This document shows positions 1,500 to 22,436 of a DNA stretch of 28,617 nucleotides, one piece after another. The notes beneath the pieces were generated by a model. The model was not told where the DNA came from. It saw only the letters and a list, made by a program, of their open reading frames with translations, and did no database searches. Origin of the DNA: a virus. Both the position numbers and the translations under genes were made by a program. The first letter of the stretch is position 1. Every line of letters starts with the position of its first letter. The DNA lies in the IMG/VR virus record IMGVR_UViG_3300050821_004046, positions 1 through 28,617 of that record; one strand, given 5' to 3'.

Positions 1500-4220
1500 A
1501 TGCCAGTATTTGATTTTAACTTATACAATCTAAAGGCAATAACCGTGTGTATTGATTCATCTCAATATACATTTTTAAATGCTCCAACAACAATGTCTGG
1601 AGTATTTACTTTTACAGCAATACCAGCATTCCAGGCAAATAAATTACAACAGATTATTATCATGGATAGCGCAAATATTGTCTATACACGCGAATATGAT
1701 GGAGAAATATGGAGCGACTGGATTACAAATTCTGGGGGTGGTGATGTCCTAGGTACTCTCCTAACCGGATTGACAAGTGGTATTGGCAGAATTGTCGCAA
1801 CTGATACCATTTTAGAAGCATTTAGTAAATTGAGTTATGCTCCCAGTTTTGTCGGATTGGACTTAACATCAAATGGTGATACTCTCGTTATGGGAACATA
1901 TCCCAATCAAATATCTTTGTATATTGGTGGCGTTACTGGAAATATGAATAGGGCAACTTTTCCAGGAGGAAATGTAACAAGTACGACAATAATAGGAAAT
2001 GATTCGCCAGCATCGGGCACAGCATTATCTAATATTGGAACGAACGGTATACAAAATTCAATAATGATAATAAATCAATTATTAACTGGATTGTCCATCA
2101 CTAATTCTGCAATTACTGCTACAGACAGTATTTTAAGTGGATTTGGAAAGGCACAAGGGCAATTAAATTCTAAATTACCTAATATGTTGACAATGGCTAA
2201 TCTATTGGTGGGTAATGCTTCTAATATTGCTACGGCGGTGTCACCTACTGGTGCAGTAAGTATGAGTGATCTCGGGGTTTTTACTCTCACGCCAGGAATT
2301 AATGCACTTGACATAGCTGCCGGATTAACTAACAATACAGATTTTAATAACCTTTCTGGTACTACGGCTAATATTCAAATGCAAATCAGTGCATTAGCTG
2401 CGGGATTAGATATTAGAGGTGGATATGATGCTTCGTCTAATTTATTTCCATCTACCGGTGGTAGTGGTGTTGCTGGGGCTATTCAAGCTGGTGATTTTTG
2501 GTATATTACAGTTGGAGGCGTATTAGGTGGTGTAACCGTAGATCCTGGTGCTTTAATTACAGCCCTCGTTAATTTACCTGGTCAAACATCTAGTAACTGG
2601 GGAATTACCGCTACAACCGTGACTTCTGTTTTTGGTAGAATGGGAGCAGTAATAGCAAATACGGGGGATTACAATATTTCTCAAATTACTGATGGATTAT
2701 CCCGAGTTTTAGCTACAGATTCATTCTATCTGGGTGTGGGTGGAGTTGCAACGGCTACTGTATTCAATACTGCAGTTCTTAATCAAATATTAACGGGATT
2801 TGTGCCAATAACTGGTCAAAGCGTGAATAATACGGACACAGTTTTACAATCCATAGAAAAATTGGCGGGCACAGCTTCTACAGCATATAATATAGTTTAT
2901 TCAAGTACTACTTATGAATTTACTTCAAATACAATAACATTAGTTCTCACTGAAAATAATTTATTTGGAGTTTTACCTGTTCCGACATCTGATTTTATAC
3001 CTGGGGTAACCTATACATTGAAATTAGGCCCAGGCATTACCCAAGGAGCATTAGGTCCAGTAGCAGGAACTTTGCTTGATGGAAGTCTTAATCCATTTAT
3101 ATTAAGCGGTGCTAATAATGCTGTGTCATTTCAAACAGATGGCGCAAATTGGATTACGGTACCAGCGAATTATGGACAAAAAAATATGCCATACGGTATT
3201 CCGGGTTTAGATATTAATAATTACATGAATCCAGATTTAATAGGATATGGCGTGCCTAAGTGGGGAGTTCAACAGGCAAATTATGTAGCCAATGGTACAT
3301 GGAATGCTAATCCTACGGGTATAGCGGCGCCGTTTAGTTCACTTTGCTATTCAGAAAATTTAGGATTACTAGTTAGTGTAACAGATTCAAATTCTGGTGT
3401 AACTGCCACTTCGTCCGATGGAGTTAATTGGATATCTGGTACAGCTGCTTCCGCAAGCAGTTGGAATGAGGTTTGTTATTCTCCAGAATTGGGTTTATTC
3501 GTAGCTGTTGGGTCAAGTGATCCGGATGGAATAATGACGAGTCCTGACGGAGTAACATGGACAATACAATCAAATCCAGACTCTAATACATGGCAATGTG
3601 TTTGTTGGGCAGCTGAACTCGGAATATTTGTAGCTTTGGCGGATAATAATGTAACAAATGGAGCAATGATTAGTAATGATGGTGTAATTTGGACTACTGT
3701 AACAGCCTCAGTCCTTGCTGATTCATGGTTTAATATTTGTTACTCTCCCGAACTTAACTTATTGGTTGGTGTTGCACTTAGCGGTTCAATAATAACTAGT
3801 CCTGATGGCATGACTTGGACGTCGCAAACATCTCCAATTATGGAACCATTAACCAATATTGTATGGGCTAATAGATTGGGCTTATTTGTAGGTATAGCGG
3901 CTATAGGTGGGGGAAATCAAGTTATAACAAGTCCAGACGGCATCACTTGGACTTTAGGGGCTGCTGCCTCTAGCAATGTCTGGGTTGGTCTTGCGTATTC
4001 TCCTATGTTTAATTTGCTTGCTGCAGTTTCTCTTGATGGTGCAATAATGACAAGTTTTGATGGCATGAATTGGACTTTACAAACAAGTCCAGCTGCCAAT
4101 GCATGGCTAGCAATTTGTTTTGTTCCCGAATTGGCTAGATTCATTACTTTAAGTAATGGAGGAGAGACAAATAATTCAATGACTAGCTCATCAGCATGGA
4201 ATTTTACTTATGCTACGTAA
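1500..4220 (+). CDS. Tail fibre protein with shared adaptor N-terminus and C-terminal seven-bladed propeller
   Basis: This is a 906-aa virion protein. Residues 38-69 are identical to the N-terminal remnant of the upstream fibre gene. The middle holds fibre-type repeats of the form LTGxxx...TDTIxxxxxKL (near residues 88, 191 and 430) and a SVFGRMGAV...GDY motif near residue 376, which is common in phage fibres. From about residue 600 to the end there are seven repeats of about 43 residues, each with a (C/V)(Y/W)SPELGLxVxV strand and a (T/S)SPDGxxWT turn. The turn resembles the Asp-box of sialidase-like propellers. The last blade is degenerate. The gene starts 28 bp after the previous stop with little Shine-Dalgarno signal, so translation may depend on the upstream gene. 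Likely role: host binding. No glycosidase catalytic residues were identified. Confidence 0.75.
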   Translation: MPVFDFNLYNLKAITVCIDSSQYTFLNAPTTMSGVFTFTAIPAFQANKLQQIIIMDSANIVYTREYDGEIWSDWITNSGGGDVLGTLLTGLTSGIGRIVATDTILEAFSKLSYAPSFVGLDLTSNGDTLVMGTYPNQISLYIGGVTGNMNRATFPGGNVTSTTIIGNDSPASGTALSNIGTNGIQNSIMIINQLLTGLSITNSAITATDSILSGFGKAQGQLNSKLPNMLTMANLLVGNASNIATAVSPTGAVSMSDLGVFTLTPGINALDIAAGLTNNTDFNNLSGTTANIQMQISALAAGLDIRGGYDASSNLFPSTGGSGVAGAIQAGDFWYITVGGVLGGVTVDPGALITALVNLPGQTSSNWGITATTVTSVFGRMGAVIANTGDYNISQITDGLSRVLATDSFYLGVGGVATATVFNTAVLNQILTGFVPITGQSVNNTDTVLQSIEKLAGTASTAYNIVYSSTTYEFTSNTITLVLTENNLFGVLPVPTSDFIPGVTYTLKLGPGITQGALGPVAGTLLDGSLNPFILSGANNAVSFQTDGANWITVPANYGQKNMPYGIPGLDINNYMNPDLIGYGVPKWGVQQANYVANGTWNANPTGIAAPFSSLCYSENLGLLVSVTDSNSGVTATSSDGVNWISGTAASASSWNEVCYSPELGLFVAVGSSDPDGIMTSPDGVTWTIQSNPDSNTWQCVCWAAELGIFVALADNNVTNGAMISNDGVIWTTVTASVLADSWFNICYSPELNLLVGVALSGSIITSPDGMTWTSQTSPIMEPLTNIVWANRLGLFVGIAAIGGGNQVITSPDGITWTLGAAASSNVWVGLAYSPMFNLLAAVSLDGAIMTSFDGMNWTLQTSPAANAWLAICFVPELARFITLSNGGETNNSMTSSSAWNFTYAT
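1610..1707 (+). repeat. 98-bp perfect direct repeat, copy B (tail-fibre adaptor segment)
   Basis: This is the second copy of the segment at 1-98. It lies inside the second fibre gene and encodes about residues 38-69. It marks the junction between the constant N-terminal part and the variable distal part. Confidence 0.95.
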
Positions 4221-18406: not shown

Positions 18407-18795
18407 TCGCATTTTTGATACTCCTGATCGAATGACTCGACTGATTGGATTCCACTTTCGTATAAACGCGACCCCCTACATTCATAATGAATAAATAATT
18501 GATTTTTATCATTTATAAAAAAATCGTTAATTATTATATTATAATTTGCTTGGGGAGATATATTTTTTTTAGGTATAAACAGATCACCCTTTTGTACGCT
18601 TATAAATTTTTCTTTGCTATAGCCAGACCCATATAAATTTTTATCATTTGTTAACCAATAGGCTCCGCAACGATCTTCAACTATATAGTATTTACCTATC
18701 GTTAAGGGGTCATCCTTCCACTTATCTACACATTTGGCAATTTCATCAATATTATTTGTCGCACCTCCAAGATTAAATCTGTTAGTTAATTTCAT
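18403..18795 (-). CDS. Hypothetical protein, 130 aa
   Basis: The likely start is the ATG at 18795 (Met-Lys-Leu-Thr), preceded on its strand by AAGG nine bases upstream. Longer in-frame versions would run deep into the HAD gene. The protein has an N-terminal helix with ATNNIDEIAKCVDKW, then a beta region with IGKYYIVEDRCGAYWLTNDKNLYGSGYS and ISVQKGDLFIPKK. It resembles small SH3-like or phage accessory proteins, but I do not recognise it. It overlaps the HAD-like gene by 14 nt and is the last gene of the - operon. Confidence 0.6.
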   Translation of the reverse strand: MKLTNRFNLGGATNNIDEIAKCVDKWKDDPLTIGKYYIVEDRCGAYWLTNDKNLYGSGYSKEKFISVQKGDLFIPKKNISPQANYNIIINDFFINDKNQLFIHYECRGSRLYESGIQSVESFDQEYQKCD

Positions 18796-19204
18796 TTTTA
18801 GGTGCCTTAAACCGCATAACAGGAATTTTAAGCTCTTTGTTGAATAATTTACATACATCTTTAGAATTATCAATTAATAACTTAATATCAAAAATGTGTT
18901 TAATGCTTTCATCATAAAGTATTTCTTTGATTGCGGCATCGTCTTCGTTTTGAAATGTAGCGCTATGATCTGGATAATAGAACTCTTCAAAAATAACCCC
19001 AGCTTTTAAGATTTTTGCATTTGTTTTTTCTGGCTCTTCAAGTCTATCAGCGGTAAATACCACTATTGAATACCCGATTTTAACAAAACCCTTTATTGCA
19101 TCAACCACGATTTGATTTATACCATCACCATTTAAAATGGTATTATGAATATCTACCAAAATGGTGGTTTTTTTTGTTTTTACTTTAGCTTTTTCTTTTT
19201 TCAT
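18782..19204 (-). CDS. HAD-superfamily phosphatase-like protein with variant motif I
   Basis: This 140-aa protein opens with a Lys-rich stretch, then motif I ILVDIHNTILNG (Asp18 as nucleophile, His20 where Asp is normal, Thr22). Motif II is VVFTADR (Thr51), and motif IV-like acidic residues are in KLLIDNSKDVC (Asp112, Asp116). A Lys for motif III may be Lys93. The section TNAKILKAGVIFEEFYYPD resembles PNKP-type 3' phosphatases and nucleotidases. Likely activity is phosphate removal from nucleic acid ends or nucleotides, but loss of the second Asp could change chemistry or abolish it. AAAGGA precedes the ATG, and it sits downstream of the NAD-salvage genes. Confidence 0.7.
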   Translation of the reverse strand: MKKEKAKVKTKKTTILVDIHNTILNGDGINQIVVDAIKGFVKIGYSIVVFTADRLEEPEKTNAKILKAGVIFEEFYYPDHSATFQNEDDAAIKEILYDESIKHIFDIKLLIDNSKDVCKLFNKELKIPVMRFKAPKNEIN

Positions 19205-19689: not shown

Positions 19690-19917
19690 CTACTTCAAAA
19701 TTTTAATAAGTTTTTTCTTTTCGTGCGCAATATAACCCAACTCCTTAAGCCTTCGTATGACTCGTCTCGAACACTTGATATTCAGAGATTTAATAATAAA
19801 TATACTTAACTCATCATGTGTTAGCTCTCTATTTTCTTTCTTGCATTTCTTAAGAAATTCAATAGGTTTGTGATAATATACTTCGGAATCGAGTCCTGTT
19901 TTAACGTTACCTGTCAT
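19690..19917 (-). CDS. Small basic protein, possible winged-helix DNA-binding fold
   Basis: This 75-aa protein is rich in Lys and Arg with three predicted helices: HKPIEFLKKCKKENR, THDELSIFIIKSL and CSRRVIRRLKELGYI, then a short basic C-terminus. The sequence 'S-R-R-x-I-R-R-L-K-E-L-G-Y-I' looks like a recognition helix followed by a wing. The ATG overlaps the stop of the nicotinamide phosphoribosyltransferase-like gene (TAATG), so it is probably translated by coupling. Specific function not recognised; a transcription regulator is the simplest guess. Confidence 0.55.
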   Translation of the reverse strand: MTGNVKTGLDSEVYYHKPIEFLKKCKKENRELTHDELSIFIIKSLNIKCSRRVIRRLKELGYIAHEKKKLIKILK

Positions 19918-21467
19918 TATTTATTTTCCATTAAATGGTTATTAATATCTTTGTTAATTCTGCCTCTAATTTCGGTTAAATTTTGTTGATTGTGGAAATT
20001 ACCGTCATTATACATAGTAAATAATCCCCCTAGACTTTCCTCTTCTTTGCTAACTTGGTCCTTAAGAATATAATTGCCGTCAACTATATCGATGCGTAGC
20101 AATCCCTTAGCTGAATTTTTAATTCCAGAATCAGTTTTAGGGGATTTAAATATTTCTCGACCTGCGCCATTAACCTCACCGTAAGTAGATTTTACAGCCA
20201 TTCCGAAGCTATCACGAGTAGAATACTGATAAGTATAAGAGCCAATACCAAATACGATGTTAGAACTTGCAAAACCCTTCTCTTGCAATCTGGTCAGAAT
20301 TTTATTAGCACGCTCCAAAGTGATGCTATCACCATAAATTAAGCCGATATGTGAATCTAATACCTTATAGCCTTTTTCATTTATTGTACCACCGAAAATA
20401 TCCCATAAGCATTCAATTGCACCCTTAAATTCTGGTTGAGATTGATCTATTTGTTTATTTTCTACTATATCTCTATAGTCTTTACACTCTAAGGCTTTAC
20501 CGCAAATAATATCAACTGGATCACCGCTATCTGGACGTATAACAACTTTACCATCTCGGGACATTATTATGTCTTTAAGTTTAGGGAGATATTCTGTAAT
20601 TACTTTCCAGAAATCCCAGGTATCGCTAACTATAGAAACAATTCCTTTGGGGTAAAGTTTTGTAATGAATCTCTTAAAAGTATCAATTTCTGAATCAAAA
20701 CCATTAAGGCACATACAACTATGCTCACTTGCCGGTACACTACAACCAATCAATTCTGTATCTGAGTCACAATTATAGTAATATTCAGCCATATCAATAG
20801 CGGGGATAGTATCTGTACCAACAAAACATGTTAAATGCGCCATTCCTGAAGCTGCTGCATCAATATTCCCGCTCATCCCTCTAAAGCTAAAGTCATGACC
20901 TTGGAATTTAACCAGACTCATATCAGCGCCAGTTTTTTGGGCATAATGTGCTAAGACGCGCTTATATTCAAATGCAATGCTGGCATTCGTGCATAGTTTC
21001 CAAACTGTGGCCGATAATATAGTCTCAAGAAAATTTGTTATCCAGAAGAATTCAGGCAATGTATTAACAATTGTCAATATTGGTACTTTCATGTTAACGC
21101 GTACACCTTCAGGTAATGCTTTAATCTTAATGGGTAAATACCCTAAATTGTGCAGCGCTTCAATATGTTCATAAGTTATAGCGTCCTTACCTAATGAGTT
21201 TTCAATTCTGCGTTTAAATGATGCTATAACTTGCGCTTTCGGTTCATTAAAAAAGTTATCACGAAACAAGTTATGTAAATATCTAATAAAATATTGAGTG
21301 CCAAAAACCACCATTTTACCGTCATAGAAAGGGCTTTGATGGCACGGAGAAAGCCTATTACTTCTCGGCGTTAGATTGCTATAGACCAATGTTGTACCTT
21401 CTGGGTACTGTCTGCGGTGGTCTATTTTATAAAAGTCACATTGTGTCAGTGGGTTTGATTTATACAT
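19917..21467 (-). CDS. nadV: Nicotinamide phosphoribosyltransferase-like enzyme (NadV/Nampt or Namat type)
   Basis: This 516-aa protein has a full Nampt architecture. The N-terminal CDFYKIDHRRQYP carries the Asp-x-Tyr-Lys pair for nicotinamide and phosphate contacts. GHDFSFRGMSG supplies the stacking Phe193 and Arg196. FVGTDT supplies Asp219, ASEHS supplies the catalytic His249, and VVIRPDSGDP supplies Arg311 and Asp313. These positions match human NAMPT closely. Canonical reaction: nicotinamide plus PRPP gives NMN. Coupled with a Prs-like gene, it might instead join nicotinamide to ADP-ribose pyrophosphate. The start has AAAGGA upstream and lies one base after the Prs-like stop. The fold assignment is firm; the substrate is not. 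Confidence 0.93.
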   Translation of the reverse strand: MYKSNPLTQCDFYKIDHRRQYPEGTTLVYSNLTPRSNRLSPCHQSPFYDGKMVVFGTQYFIRYLHNLFRDNFFNEPKAQVIASFKRRIENSLGKDAITYEHIEALHNLGYLPIKIKALPEGVRVNMKVPILTIVNTLPEFFWITNFLETILSATVWKLCTNASIAFEYKRVLAHYAQKTGADMSLVKFQGHDFSFRGMSGNIDAAASGMAHLTCFVGTDTIPAIDMAEYYYNCDSDTELIGCSVPASEHSCMCLNGFDSEIDTFKRFITKLYPKGIVSIVSDTWDFWKVITEYLPKLKDIIMSRDGKVVIRPDSGDPVDIICGKALECKDYRDIVENKQIDQSQPEFKGAIECLWDIFGGTINEKGYKVLDSHIGLIYGDSITLERANKILTRLQEKGFASSNIVFGIGSYTYQYSTRDSFGMAVKSTYGEVNGAGREIFKSPKTDSGIKNSAKGLLRIDIVDGNYILKDQVSKEEESLGGLFTMYNDGNFHNQQNLTEIRGRINKDINNHLMENK

Positions 21468-21468
21468 A

Positions 21469-22287
21469 TTACTGTCCTTTAAAAGTTACTAATTCGACAA
21501 AGTCTTTATGATCTGGGAATTTATTAATCAAAAAATGGTAGCTATCTGGGTTAATTATCTTTAGCTTACTAATCCCGGCATCAATTATATTTTGCAACCC
21601 ATAACTACAAAAAGCATGGTATAGCATCAGTTCAATTTTAATTGTGTCAGAGTTCATAATATCATTTTTTAATGCTTCAACACATGCTACAAATGTTCTA
21701 TTTCCGTCCCCAATATCATCACAAATCAAAAAAGGTTTAGCGTGATTTATTTCTTCTGGTAATTTTCCCCTGTCCAATGTTAAGTGAGGTGCTCCATTAT
21801 CATCACGATATTTGATAAAAGTATACATTTTAGCATCTGGATAATAATAGTGATTCCTGGCTGATTCGTCTGGAAATACTATATTGTAATCAGACTGCAA
21901 TGCCATTGCATTGTATTTCATGTTTTCTAGTTGTAGTAGTTTTTCTATATTTGAATAGCTCCTCCACTGATGTCCACTACTACAGTGTAATGCCATAGTT
22001 CTAATGCGATTAAACTGAGTTTTAATCACCTTAATAAACTCATTAAAAGCGATTGGTTGCCCGGCTTCAAATACTCTATCCTGACGCGCATAAGGCAAGT
22101 ATGGAGCGTCTAATACAATATCTATATCGTTACCGTAAGTGTGTCTAATTGCAGCAGCTTGTAGAAGTGGAATCATTACATCTTTTTGCTCGAAGTAATT
22201 CCACGTTATAGTCGCATAATTTTGTCGTAACCGTTCGGTTAAAGTTACTTCAACCTCACCAGAATTGTGCTGTTTAATATTGAACAT
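21469..22287 (-). CDS. prs: PRPP-synthetase-like enzyme (Prs or ADPR-pyrophosphate synthetase type)
   Basis: I choose the ATG at 22287, which shares its A with the stop of a 49-aa upstream gene, over the in-frame ATG at 22308. The protein is 272 aa, shorter than cellular Prs (about 315). Retained features are the ATP-binding loop PYLPYARQDR (residues 62-71) and a loop DDIGDGNRT at 190-198 in the position of the ribose-phosphate loop (usual form DDxIDTGGT). A lysine (Lys159) lies in the catalytic flexible-loop position. The DLH Mg-binding motif appears as ALHC (residues 99-102), with Ala for the Asp. Expected chemistry: pyrophosphate transfer from ATP to a ribose phosphate, either ribose-5-P or ADP-ribose, feeding the downstream Nampt-like enzyme. 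Confidence 0.85.
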   Translation of the reverse strand: MFNIKQHNSGEVEVTLTERLRQNYATITWNYFEQKDVMIPLLQAAAIRHTYGNDIDIVLDAPYLPYARQDRVFEAGQPIAFNEFIKVIKTQFNRIRTMALHCSSGHQWRSYSNIEKLLQLENMKYNAMALQSDYNIVFPDESARNHYYYPDAKMYTFIKYRDDNGAPHLTLDRGKLPEEINHAKPFLICDDIGDGNRTFVACVEALKNDIMNSDTIKIELMLYHAFCSYGLQNIIDAGISKLKIINPDSYHFLINKFPDHKDFVELVTFKGQ

Positions 22288-22436
22288 TATAATTTTCCCT
22301 TCAGCCATAAACCTACTTTAGCCCAAAATCCCAGCTCTAATTGTTTATGCCAAAAATCGCAGTAATCTCGTCTCATAGCCATTGGTATAGCATTTTGCCA
22401 ATTAGTAGCATTTCTTACGTCTTCGTACTGTGTCAT
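22287..22436 (-). CDS. 49-aa small protein coupled to the Prs-like gene
   Basis: This short ORF has a very strong ribosome-binding site: AAAGGAGATATAAA directly before the ATG. Its TAA overlaps the Prs-like ATG (TAATG). The product begins MTQYEDVRNATNWQ and contains RRDYCDFWHKQLELGFW and a Trp-rich, Lys-rich C-terminus; it has no signal peptide. The overlap implies it is made together with the NAD-pathway enzymes. I do not recognise it. The ribosome-binding site and tight coupling are good evidence of a real gene. Confidence 0.7.
   Translation of the reverse strand: MTQYEDVRNATNWQNAIPMAMRRDYCDFWHKQLELGFWAKVGLWLKGKL

Follow-up and report, generated by a model that had tools for sequence, protein, structure and literature searches.

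A predicted NARP1-type Adps and Namat gene pair with a divergent first enzyme in a myovirus-like phage fragment

The virus record analysed here (28,617 bases, hereafter the window) carries on its minus strand a gene for an Adps-like protein (ADP-ribose pyrophosphate synthetase, Prs fold), followed by a gene for a Namat-like protein (nicotinamide ADP-ribose transferase). On the strength of sequence comparison and structural modelling, we consider the pair to be a NARP1 pathway for rebuilding NAD+, with a probability of about 0.88. During infection, host NADases (TIR, SIR2 or SEFIR) would cleave NAD+ to ADP-ribose and nicotinamide. Adps would move pyrophosphate from ATP onto ADP-ribose, yielding ADP-ribose pyrophosphate, and Namat would couple this product to nicotinamide to form NAD+, so that two steps would suffice without an NMN adenylyltransferase. 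Both the chemistry and the counter-defence function are known from verified relatives (PMC12774641, PMC11559045, PMC13232231), and family membership suggests the same reactions and role in the phage of the window. The pair thus reads as a clear but expected member of NARP1 with an unusually divergent first enzyme, and it extends this counter-defence to a lineage of phages that has no close known relatives.

Organization of the locus

By gene content, the window appears to be a fragment of a myovirus-like genome. Genes for portal, head morphogenesis, baseplate wedge and hub, and tape-measure proteins lie on the plus strand, and RecT, exonuclease VIII-like and DUF1351 genes lie on the minus strand upstream of the operon. 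Two other plus-strand ORFs, of 472 aa (53-1471) and 906 aa (1500-4220), had no PHROG match, and the former also had no match in the phage collection. A PADLOC search returned no match. The ORF list contained the 49-aa, Prs-like and Nampt-like frames on the minus strand, where an earlier note had placed them, and the coordinates bore out its description of three genes joined by TAATG or 1-bp junctions. The 49-aa gene (22287-22436, minus strand) is coupled through TAATG to the 272-aa Adps-like gene (21469-22287, minus strand). In the ORF list, the Prs-like frame opens at an earlier ATG, at 22308; the ATG at 22287 forms the TAATG overlap with the stop codon of the 49-aa gene, in agreement with the coordinates of the earlier note. 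A single base pair (21468) separates the Prs-like stop from the ATG (21467) of the 516-aa Namat-like gene (19917-21467, minus strand), so that adps and namat are adjacent, as in NARP1. The Namat stop in turn overlaps, again by TAATG, a 75-aa gene (19690-19917, minus strand). Upstream of the start codons lie ribosome-binding-like sequences: AAAGGAG for the 49-aa gene, GAAGGG for the Prs-like gene and AAAGGA for the Nampt-like gene.

The N-terminus of the 49-aa protein recurs in the nearest relative, locus L215 (70% identity over 20 aa), which marks the gene as real. A set of 50,697 phage records contained no homologue and the fetched loci just one, and the idea that it is a conserved part of NARP1 was abandoned.

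The pairing of the two enzyme genes extended beyond the window. A Prs-like gene was present in the same locus for 76 of the 80 viral Namat relatives, and neither gene occurred in any of 80 control loci (approximately 0.94 Mb from the same collection) fetched via the RecT gene of the window. The window, a 28.6-kb record that is possibly a fragment, and the records of the viruses closest to it, which are fragments or possibly so, showed no NMN adenylyltransferase (CTP-transferase-like) or Nudix domain; within these bounds, the earlier observation that no adenylyltransferase is visible was confirmed.

Assignment of the two enzymes

The Namat-like protein was assigned by profile, tree, contact residues and model. 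It matched phrog_448 along its whole length (E = 1.5e-201), and the closest solved structures were 9w5w and 9w5x, titled Namat with NAD and Namat with nicotinamide. In a tree of 64 proteins, comprising 55 of the Namat type and nine of the Nampt type (five phage and four cellular proteins), the window protein fell inside the Namat clade, and the split between Namat and Nampt had an SH-aLRT value of 100 on a branch of 1.17. The AF2 model (pLDDT 91.5) was closer to 9w5w (Z 46.2, rmsd 1.5 over 475 residues) than to HdNadV (Z 43.5) or human NAMPT (Z 40). When the NAD+-contact residues of SPbetaL1 Namat were taken from PMC12774641 and mapped by alignment, 18 of the 20 were identical in the window, and the two changes, A362 to S381 and F392 to Y411, were conservative. 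The selectivity clamp has been defined by two elements, a GSX-X-X-TRD helix motif whose third and seventh positions are aromatic and a clamp loop that contributes a stacking Arg, Lys or Tyr; in SPbetaL1, the loop residue that stacks on adenine is Arg40 (PMC12774641). Alignment showed both elements in the window protein, namely the helix motif GSYTYQYSTRD (Namat residues 409-419; 20211-20243, minus strand) and Arg38 (codon at 21354-21356, minus strand), the equivalent of Arg40, and the adenine clamp is thereby complete (R38, Y411, Y415, T417 and D419). In the nine Nampt-type proteins, position 392 is occupied by G, A or Q, and position 396 is not aromatic (SPbetaL1 Namat numbering). The Namat clade also contained L214, a near-copy of the Haemophilus ducreyi NadV type solved with NMN (PDB 9ke8). 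Its clamp motif, GAQTYQRNTRD, has lost both aromatics, and a Prs-like gene was absent from its locus as fetched. L214 provides a natural control, representing an NMN-forming NadV type within the Namat clade.

The Prs-like protein matched phrog_619 (E = 8.6e-30), and its TIGR01251 score of 56.9 bits was below the cut-off of 113 for cellular ribose-phosphate diphosphokinase. A search of the PDB yielded no close homologue; the AF2 model (pLDDT 88.9) aligned with human PRPS1 with a Z of 18.7 and an rmsd of 3.1 over 244 residues. Its identity to the closest known phage homologue was about 29%. As single queries against viral contigs, neither this protein nor the baseplate protein gave a match, and a two-sequence Prs alignment used as the query found L215 and L216. 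In a careful tree to which two close relatives had been added, all operon-type Prs proteins formed one clade (support 100/99), among them the window protein, SPbetaL1 Adps and ICP1 NrsA (L204). Housekeeping Prs proteins, drawn from the genomes of operon-bearing bacteria, formed a clade of their own in this tree and in a larger quick tree. An AU test rejected the placement of the window subclade with housekeeping Prs only narrowly (p = 0.047, borderline). In PRPP synthetase, a D-T-[AG]-G-T loop holds the 5'-phosphate of ribose-5-phosphate. This loop was present in all eight housekeeping Prs proteins and in none of the listed operon-type proteins, most of which have DDICDGGxTF; in the alignment, the corresponding Adps-type loop of the window is DDIGDGNRTF (Adps residues 190-199; 21691-21720, minus strand). 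We infer that the altered loop of the operon-type proteins suits ADP-ribose. Taken with the clamp map, D-G-x-x-T-F versus D-T-[AG]-G-T provides a simple sequence test that separates NARP1 from plain Prs/Nampt pairs.

The same data bear on plain nicotinamide salvage, in which the Prs-like enzyme would make PRPP, the Nampt-like enzyme would make NMN, and a host adenylyltransferase would complete NAD+. Such a route is in keeping with the Prs and Nampt folds of the two models and with the occurrence of similar bacterial proteins in prs-nadV operons. In addition, Namat can still make NMN from PRPP in vitro (PMC12774641), and the clamp motif is found in the NadV proteins of bacterial prs-nadV-nrtR operons; the motif alone is therefore no proof of the physiological substrate, and it was rejected as sole proof of NARP1. 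However, the tree check proposed in the earlier note came out in favour of NARP1: the Nampt-like protein lay in the Namat clade, apart from NMN-forming Nampt, and the Prs-like protein lay with SPbetaL1 Adps rather than with PRPP synthetase. Moreover, the adenine clamp is intact in the window but lost in the NMN-forming NadV type of H. ducreyi, and the window loop lacks the D-T-x-G-T found in all housekeeping Prs examined. We consider plain salvage quite improbable, and the earlier preference for NARP1 is supported by both clade placements, the adenine clamp and the lack of an NMN adenylyltransferase in the window.

Divergence and constraint in the Adps-like protein

The Adps-like protein is among the most divergent of the compared Adps sequences that retain the catalytic residues. 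D70, H101, D140, K159, R161, D190, D191, T198 and H224 are all kept, in columns that are invariant or nearly so across 73 operon-type proteins. Two otherwise conserved spots are altered, with PDxGA changed to PDESA and D-P-H-S to A-L-H-C. Loci L215, L216 and L008 share changes at both spots, which places them with the window in one Adps subclade. The window Adps had a branch length of 2.38 in the larger quick tree, and Prs identity within the window clade was 0.36 against an expected 0.55, at a Namat identity of 0.70-0.75. By these sequence measures, the subclade has evolved faster than its Namat. Nevertheless, the Adps frame is open in L215, L216 and L008, and comparison of the window with L215 gave a dN of 0.31 against saturated synonymous sites, which indicates purifying selection. 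The earlier description of the Prs-like protein as degenerate was accordingly too strong, because the invariant catalytic residues are kept, though two ligand-loop spots are altered.

One explanation for the altered spots, which we regard as unlikely but not negligible, is that the subclade is a NARP1 variant with changed substrate or regulation. Its members have replaced the glycine of the pyrophosphate loop and the metal/ligand motif D-P-H-S, while Namat is conserved; on this doubtful reading, the substrate could be, for example, a modified or cyclic ADP-ribose produced by a particular defence. It is highly improbable that the Prs-like gene is decaying or lacks ADP-ribose pyrophosphorylation, leaving Namat to act alone or on another donor: the long branch, the identity deficit and the two changed spots point that way, but the retained catalytic residues, the high-confidence Prs model, the open and constrained frame and the tight translational coupling argue against it. 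Considering that no Adps structure was known according to PMC12774641, an Adps sequence that is divergent yet constrained helps to distinguish residues required for catalysis from those governing substrate choice.

Related loci and known systems

Additional genes were observed between adps and namat in some relatives. A HAD-like protein of approximately 130-150 aa with a DxDxT-like motif is encoded there in several phages (L005:5460-5891, L035:4038-4493, L038:3766-4227, L050:2599-3045, L055:4547-4975 and L085:4576-4989) and bacteria (L118, L128, L136 and L151), and was found in none of the 80 control loci. From its position, it is a candidate third component of NARP1. The window encodes a 140-aa HAD/PNKP-like protein (18782-19204, minus strand) downstream of the 75-aa gene and a 150-aa gene. 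Its first motif is DIHNT, in which the second aspartate of HAD phosphatases is missing, and it had no homologue among the fetched loci; its score of about 7 bits with the profile of the intervening HAD-like protein gave no support for equating the two. Macro, NADAR and nucleoside-deoxyribosyltransferase-like genes also occur between adps and namat in some relatives (L051:4503-4967, L079:3004-3519, L220:7308-7775, L220:6837-7304 and L035:4468-4989), with the macro match in L079 lying under the Pfam cut-off. By analogy with the RyDEP gene of a mycobacteriophage, which feeds ADP-ribose into the pathway (PMC13232231), these genes could have the same function. Other irregularities concerned ORF structure: Namat is split over two ORFs in L072, L087 has an 802-aa Namat ORF, and L047 and L048 have a second Prs fragment of 69 aa before Namat.

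NARP2 consists of Nampt and an NMN adenylyltransferase. The NARP2-like phages BcepSauron and phiM7, which carry Nampt and a nucleotidyltransferase, resemble the window in that their NAD+ locus encodes an enzyme of the Nampt fold, but differ from it in their GGxLLQ-type pocket, the lack of a Prs-like partner and a cytidyltransferase neighbour. Namat relatives are also encoded in 571 bacterial stretches, and chromosomal NARP1 has been reported previously (PMC12774641). The bacterial relatives are 55-60% identical and likewise paired, and the prs-nadV-nrtR operons (Acinetobacter, Bacteroidota and others) encode Adps-type and clamp-bearing Namat-type enzymes like those of the window. In most of the 80 bacterial loci fetched from the total of 571 (L088-L167), prs-nadV adjoins a gene for an NrtR-type protein with Nudix and winged-helix repressor domains (family name, ADPR-responsive repressor), which one bacterial record annotates as a bifunctional adenylyltransferase; no such gene is visible in the window. 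The presence of an ADP-ribose-sensing repressor beside a pathway that would reuse ADP-ribose is suggestive.

Among phages, ICP1 NrsAB of Vibrio counters the Nezha SIR2-HerA defence (PMC11559045). It is a two-gene module like that of the window and its proteins (L204) belong to the same Adps and Namat clades, although the sequences are well diverged. The closest relative, L215 (IMG/VR contig 3300035181_001114), shares 70% identity in Namat, 57% in Adps and 41% in the 75-aa gene, and has RecT and exonuclease genes upstream, as in the window. It differs from the window by two additional genes: one of 101 aa separates the 49-aa gene from Adps, and one of 85 aa separates Namat from the 75-aa gene. 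The NARP1 of Bacillus phage SPbetaL1 (Adps and Namat) differs from the window in phage type and flanking genes. Its Adps belongs to the same clade but is only about 22% identical, with PDAGA and EPHS where the window has PDESA and ALHC. Its Namat, in contrast, is 52-53% identical and shares the NAD+-contact (18 of 20) and clamp residues, and the two phages have the same gene order and tight coupling.
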